From positions 1 through 29,218 of the IMG/VR virus record IMGVR_UViG_3300022934_000113: a stretch of DNA of 29,218 nt; one strand, 5' to 3'. The stretch is from a virus. The position numbers and the translations under genes were made by a program. Below are positions 19,824 through 19,865 of this stretch, piece after piece; position 1 is the stretch's first letter, and each line of letters starts with the position of its first letter. The notes under the pieces were generated by a model that saw only the letters and a program-made list of their open reading frames with translations, ran no database searches and had not been told where the DNA came from.

Positions 19824-19865
19824 GGGATTATGAGTCCCCTGCTCTAACCGCTGAGCTAAGGGCCC
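19824..19865 (-). other. attP: Attachment site core: 5' half of a tRNA-Met(CAT)
   Basis: Minus-strand 42 nt match the 5' part of a tRNA: GGGCCCT acceptor strand, TA, D stem GCTC...GAGC with loop AGCGGTTA, anticodon stem GGGGA, loop CTCATAA (anticodon CAT) and TCCC. Variable loop, T arm and 3' acceptor strand are missing. The dyad GGGA-TTATGAG-TCCC around a 7-base centre is the shape of core sites for tyrosine integrases that exchange at the anticodon loop. Flanking DNA is phage-like on both sides, so this is attP, not a prophage end. Confidence 0.7.

Follow-up and report, generated by a model that had tools for sequence, protein, structure and literature searches.

A putative phage attachment core made of the 5' half of tRNA-Ile2(CAU), with the integrase on the fragment side

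We analysed a linear fragment of viral DNA (IMGVR_UViG_3300022934_000113, positions 1 to 29,218; this whole 29,218-nucleotide stretch is called the window below) in which the 5' half of a tRNA gene is copied exactly, near a tyrosine integrase gene. Very probably, the phage uses this segment as the common core of its attachment site (attP), and the nearby integrase would recombine it with a host tRNA-Ile2(CAU) gene, inside the anticodon loop. The layout is real but already known, if less common, and the phage of the window is a further member of the type; its own twist is the position of the integrase, on the side of the tRNA fragment. The main features around the core are these:

18138 to 19274, plus strand: tyrosine integrase gene, 378 aa (Pfam PF00589, 2.3e-13; PHROG 1 integrase, 1.3e-24)
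19758 to 19771, plus strand: arm-type repeat TGGCACTTAAATGG, matching the pattern TGGCACYNNAATGG, 56 bp left of the anticodon loop
19824 to 19865, minus strand: probable attP common core, tRNA-Ile2(CAT) nt 1-42 (5' acceptor strand, D arm, anticodon arm), as shown by identity to full-length tRNA genes in genomes of GTDB
19828 to 19834, minus strand: anticodon loop CTCATAA, the likely 7-bp overlap (crossover) region, from sequence and analogy
19979 to 20003, plus strand: two arm-type repeats TGGCACCTAAATGG and TGGCACCAGAATGG, 11 bp apart, both matching TGGCACYNNAATGG, 144 bp right of the anticodon loop
20004 to 20342, minus strand: gene for a small MarR-like winged-helix protein, reading toward the core (PF12802, 1.8e-07)

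The minus strand from 19865 to 19824 reads GGGCCCTTAGCTCAGCGGTTAGAGCAGGGGACTCATAATCCC and reproduces exactly nucleotides 1-42 of a tRNA with anticodon CAT: acceptor positions 1-7, the D arm, anticodon stem positions 27-31, the loop CTCATAA (19834..19828) and positions 39-42, that is, four of the five bases of the 3' anticodon stem. The edges are sharp, one at G1 and the other inside that stem strand. Past nucleotide 42 the tRNA likeness is lost (GTGTGGCATTC...), and the T arm and the 3' acceptor strand are absent; the composition given in an earlier note on this DNA (acceptor, D arm and anticodon stem-loop, no T arm) is borne out. Rfam returned a sub-threshold tRNA (23.8 bits against a gathering score of 29), with the 5' half fitting and the 3' half not, and ARAGORN found no complete tRNA in the window.

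A search of the GTDB genome collection found the exact 42-mer in 47 stretches. ARAGORN called a complete CAT tRNA at 45 of these; in one of the other two the tRNA is cut by the contig end (L038), and the remaining one (L047) holds the 5' half without the rest of the tRNA. In all of them the identity to the window ended exactly at nucleotide 42, and it reached 0-4 bases upstream of G1. The 42-nt identity to CAT tRNA loci, which the earlier note had suggested looking for, is therefore there. According to the record titles, the stretches belong to Verrucomicrobiota (about 20), Gammaproteobacteria (10, mostly Methylococcaceae), Planctomycetota (9), Acidobacteria (7) and one organism labelled as a cyanobacterium. 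A match of 42/42 with such sharp borders excludes a chance origin, and exact identity to one tRNA half, ending at or near the anticodon loop, is a hallmark of attachment sites of the anticodon-loop type in tRNA genes. Other IMG/VR matches to a nearly identical pattern (L002-L004) were ruled out as attP, being complete tRNA genes.

Judged by sequence, the target is tRNA-Ile2(CAU) and not tRNA-Met, because the E. coli genes most similar to a complete homologue (L044), at about 90% identity, carry the annotation tRNA-Ile. The tRNA-Met identity given earlier was thus a mislabel; ARAGORN names any CAT anticodon 'Met'. In tRNA-Ile2, the CAU anticodon is modified to lysidine.

The integrase keeps all its catalytic residues in the alignment (R227, K263, H322, R325 and Y357), and a tyrosine integrase with the R-K-H-R-Y set near the core is a further hallmark of such attachment sites. 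The core lies downstream of the gene and outside it, at a distance of 550 bp. The pattern TGGCACYNNAATGG, which was defined only after the repeats had been noticed, has three copies in the 29-kb window, all of them around the core (shuffle mean, 0.00). The copies flank the core on both sides, as integrase arm sites do, and are putative binding sites; we take their geometry to resemble that of the P' and P arms of lambda attP. Closer in, the inverted repeats TCCCCTGCT and TCCCGTGTG flank the anticodon loop and, by analogy, would suit core-type sites whose 7-bp overlap is the loop. We infer this crossover point by comparison with integrases known to act in the anticodon loop, and from integrated elements in which the shared sequence likewise stops shortly after it.

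These data also bear on whether the segment could be a decayed phage-borne tRNA gene that has lost its 3' half and plays no role in integration. Some phages do carry complete CAT tRNA genes of similar type (L002-L004), but we regard such an origin as highly improbable, given that the 42 nucleotides are unmutated and run from exactly G1 to a point just beyond the anticodon loop, where att cores usually end, and that arm-like repeats on both sides and an adjacent integrase gene accompany them. The exact nt 1-42, the borders, the integrase and the repeats support instead what had been proposed at the outset, namely that this is an attachment core with a tRNA 5' half in it.

Two degenerate arm-type repeats (TTGCACTCAAATGG and TGGCGCCTAAGTGG), 11 bp apart, were also seen far from the core, at 11623-11647 (plus strand); they are possibly a second binding place of the integrase, or due to chance. 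The right 8 kb of the window is filled by one open frame of about 2750 aa (20961-29216), whose 5' end is off the contig and whose C-terminal 1099 residues, used as a query, had no relatives in IMG/VR.

With the segment taken as an attachment core, the integrase (18138-19274) would bind the inverted core sites at the anticodon loop and the arm repeats on either side, and strand exchange would occur inside the anticodon loop of the host tRNA-Ile2(CAU) gene. At one junction, the host promoter would then be followed by a dead 5' half (nt 1-42) and by the part of the phage with the integrase. At the other, phage DNA (20003..19866) would lead into a complete tRNA, made of phage nt 1-42 and host nt 43-76; when so joined, the two parts equal the host tRNA exactly. 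The earlier note was right that the rebuilt tRNA would lose the host promoter, as the 42-nt core rebuilds the tRNA on the phage side and the same layout is known in the integrated state. Since tRNA-Ile2 is required for AUA codons, phage DNA would have to ensure transcription of the rebuilt tRNA, whether through a weak promoter located in 19866-20003 or through read-through out of the minus-strand gene at 20004-20342. The window is a clear case in which lysogeny would put an essential tRNA under phage transcription.

Our searches, which included IMG/VR and Verrucomicrobiota genomes, found no integrated copy of the window phage, and neither phage records nor IMG/VR held close relatives of its integrase, the nearest being about 27% identical. 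Terminase relatives at 85% (L052, L053) do not extend to the integrase region, and the metallophosphoesterase relatives L145 and L146 contain no tRNA half. The same layout is nevertheless found in integrated elements of Verrucomicrobiota. In the Opitutales MAG STF1_11, about 85 bp separate the 5' end of a complete tRNA-Ile2 from an integrase gene (L010), while another contig (L047) holds the 5' half alone, sharing 43 nt from G1 with L010; as read from translations, the genes before this half look cellular, and those after it resemble relaxase and mobilisation genes. Because the two loci are on separate contigs, we infer, rather than observe, that they are the two ends of one element. No relation of the STF1_11 integrase to that of the window was detectable. 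A further 20-nt fragment of the tRNA-Ile2 5' end occurs at L047:2940-2959, about 140 bp upstream of the 5' half, and is perhaps the scar of an earlier integration.

Two other examples have both ends on one contig and integrases related to ours. In genome G201, the closest Verrucomicrobiota homologue of the window integrase (27% identity, 5.8e-29) sits 5' of a complete tRNA-Arg(TCT), and nt 1-42 of this tRNA are repeated 44.7 kb away. In G1358, a related integrase accompanies a complete tRNA-Lys(CTT), and nt 1-42 are found again at 45.4 kb. In both genomes, fragment and complete tRNA differ at one position, just after the anticodon loop. A second related integrase of G201 (L075) also lies beside a tRNA 5' fragment. 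The parallel with the window is not perfect, as the three integrated 5'-half examples have the integrase at the end with the complete tRNA, whereas the window has it on the fragment side. Four further loci in which a complete tRNA adjoins an integrase gene (L064, L096, L101 and L103) were dropped as evidence on polarity, their partner fragment being absent from the stretches examined; one of them (L101) also has a 3' fragment beside the integrase gene. Another case (L117) is doubtful, with a fragment only 84% identical.

The 5'-half polarity is a minority type, as the earlier note had said: the Islander collection lists 5' tDNA fragments in 159 of 3919 islands and 3' fragments in 3760 (PMC4383910), and a review describes the use of 5' halves as seldom seen in bacteria (PMC8371274). 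The novelty implied for this layout does not hold, given precedents in three papers (PMC4383910, PMC8776855, PMC8371274). The Islander 5'-fragment islands have a complete tRNA at one end and a 5' fragment at the other (PMC4383910), as the phage of the window would once integrated, but they are integrated islands, whereas the window displays an attP on a virus contig. Among T7-like cyanophages, every attP motif corresponds to the 5' half of tRNA-Leu (PMC8776855). Two of these phages, P-SSP7 and S-TIP37, resemble the window in that a 5' tRNA half, about 39-42 nt long, serves as attP next to a tyrosine integrase (PMC8776855); they differ from it in the tRNA used (tRNA-Leu), and the integrases are far apart in our tree. 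Moreover, the P-SSP7 half is just downstream of int and co-directional with it, its 5' end toward int and a TATAAT promoter-like sequence before it, whereas in the window the truncated edge faces int, which places the promoter side away from it.

Archaeal pTN3-type integrases also use the 5' half of a tRNA as attB, and the tRNA is then expressed from the integrase promoter (PMC8371274). As proposed for the window, the rebuilt tRNA depends on the element's DNA for its promoter (PMC8371274). However, in the pTN3 type the integrase gene is split and supplies that promoter, whereas in the window int does not include the core, and its promoter has the wrong orientation. With the core 550 bp downstream of int, a split-integrase (suicide, pTN3/SSV) mechanism was ruled out. 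In the tRNA-dependent lysogeny of actinobacteriophages, whose targets include tRNA-Ile2-CAT, the phage likewise inserts into a tRNA gene that is essential (PMC10865867). Their core, of about 10 bp, does not restore the tRNA, and these phages bring along a complete tRNA of the same isotype (PMC10865867). This system was also ruled out, because the 42-nt core of the window, starting from G1, rebuilds the tRNA and, less conclusively as the contig is a fragment, because a complete tRNA gene is absent from the window.

Since the integrase lies on the fragment side, its promoter could not serve the tRNA, and the rebuilt essential tRNA may be driven from the phage side opposite the integrase. On the minus strand of 19866-20003, a consensus scan gave no sites and we found no convincing promoter. 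Two weak signals were noted in this stretch:

19898 to 19927, minus strand: weak candidate promoter TTGCCA-N18-TGAAAT, 32 nt upstream of G1 (PWM scan)
19979 to 19997, minus strand: terminator-like hairpin between the MarR-like gene and the core, within the arm repeats (scan)

With a matrix that reflects general sigma-70 knowledge and is not fitted to the host phylum, the score of TTGCCA-18-TGAAAT, the best site, was equalled or beaten in 38 of 200 shuffles of the same stretch and is not significant. The weak TTGAAA-type -35 to which the earlier note had pointed is a somewhat poorer candidate, as it pairs only with a poor -10 (CAATTT), and is unproven. The same scan applied to P-SSP7 revealed a strong TTGTTA-16-TATAAT, 19 nt before G1 of the half-tRNA, a hint, by analogy, that such phages bring their own promoter.

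A tentative possibility is that the tRNA is transcribed by read-through from the minus-strand gene block (20004-29144) and not from a promoter within 19866-20003. The block points at the core and is 138 bp from the tRNA, and a strong promoter is absent in between. However, the terminator-like hairpin intervenes, though its fold (z-score -1.24) is not significant, and a lysogen would be expected to keep late phage genes switched off. It is also conceivable, but rather unlikely, that the attP is real and integration only transient, with no stable lysogens, so that a promoter for the tRNA would not be needed for long. Cyanophages with a 5'-half attP do integrate in lytic infection, as seen by PCR, and stable lysogeny was not demonstrated (PMC8776855), which would agree with our finding no strong promoter in the window; against this, the promoter-like sequence just upstream of the half tRNA in P-SSP7 indicates that even there the tRNA is seemingly provided for.

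Both polarities occur within the family of the window integrase. Fragments on the integrase side are mostly 3' halves, several from CAT tRNAs (L070, L107), and the ordinary layout is found in G202 (tRNA-Thr nt 24-75 at 54.5 kb) and in G139 (tRNA-Val nt 30-77 at 40.7 kb). In our tree, built from 41 integrases without that of G1358 (L097), the 5' cases do not form a single clade, and many deep forks are weakly supported; clustering of the 5' cases is no more than suggestive (31 of 500 shuffles were as low). As related integrases use the opposite tRNA half, the family could help to find out how the polarity of tRNA targeting is determined.

With one query and the same threshold in each of three phyla, integrase homologues were found in 16 of 388 genomes of Verrucomicrobiota, 0 of 185 of Gammaproteobacteria and 0 of 199 of Planctomycetota. 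This distribution, together with the 42-mer matches, makes a verrucomicrobium the likeliest host, and probably the actual one. A phage with very few known relatives thereby gains a probable host phylum and integration site.

Some ribozyme-like sequences were encountered along the way. Related integrases have a type-P1 twister ribozyme downstream of them in two places, a Verrucomicrobiota genome (L075:3695-3755) and an IMG/VR contig with the same pattern of matches (L143:2453-2513). Type II hammerhead-like ribozymes, just under the gathering score, occur at L145:6514-6577 and L146:6851-6909, on the phage contigs linked to the window by a metallophosphoesterase gene.
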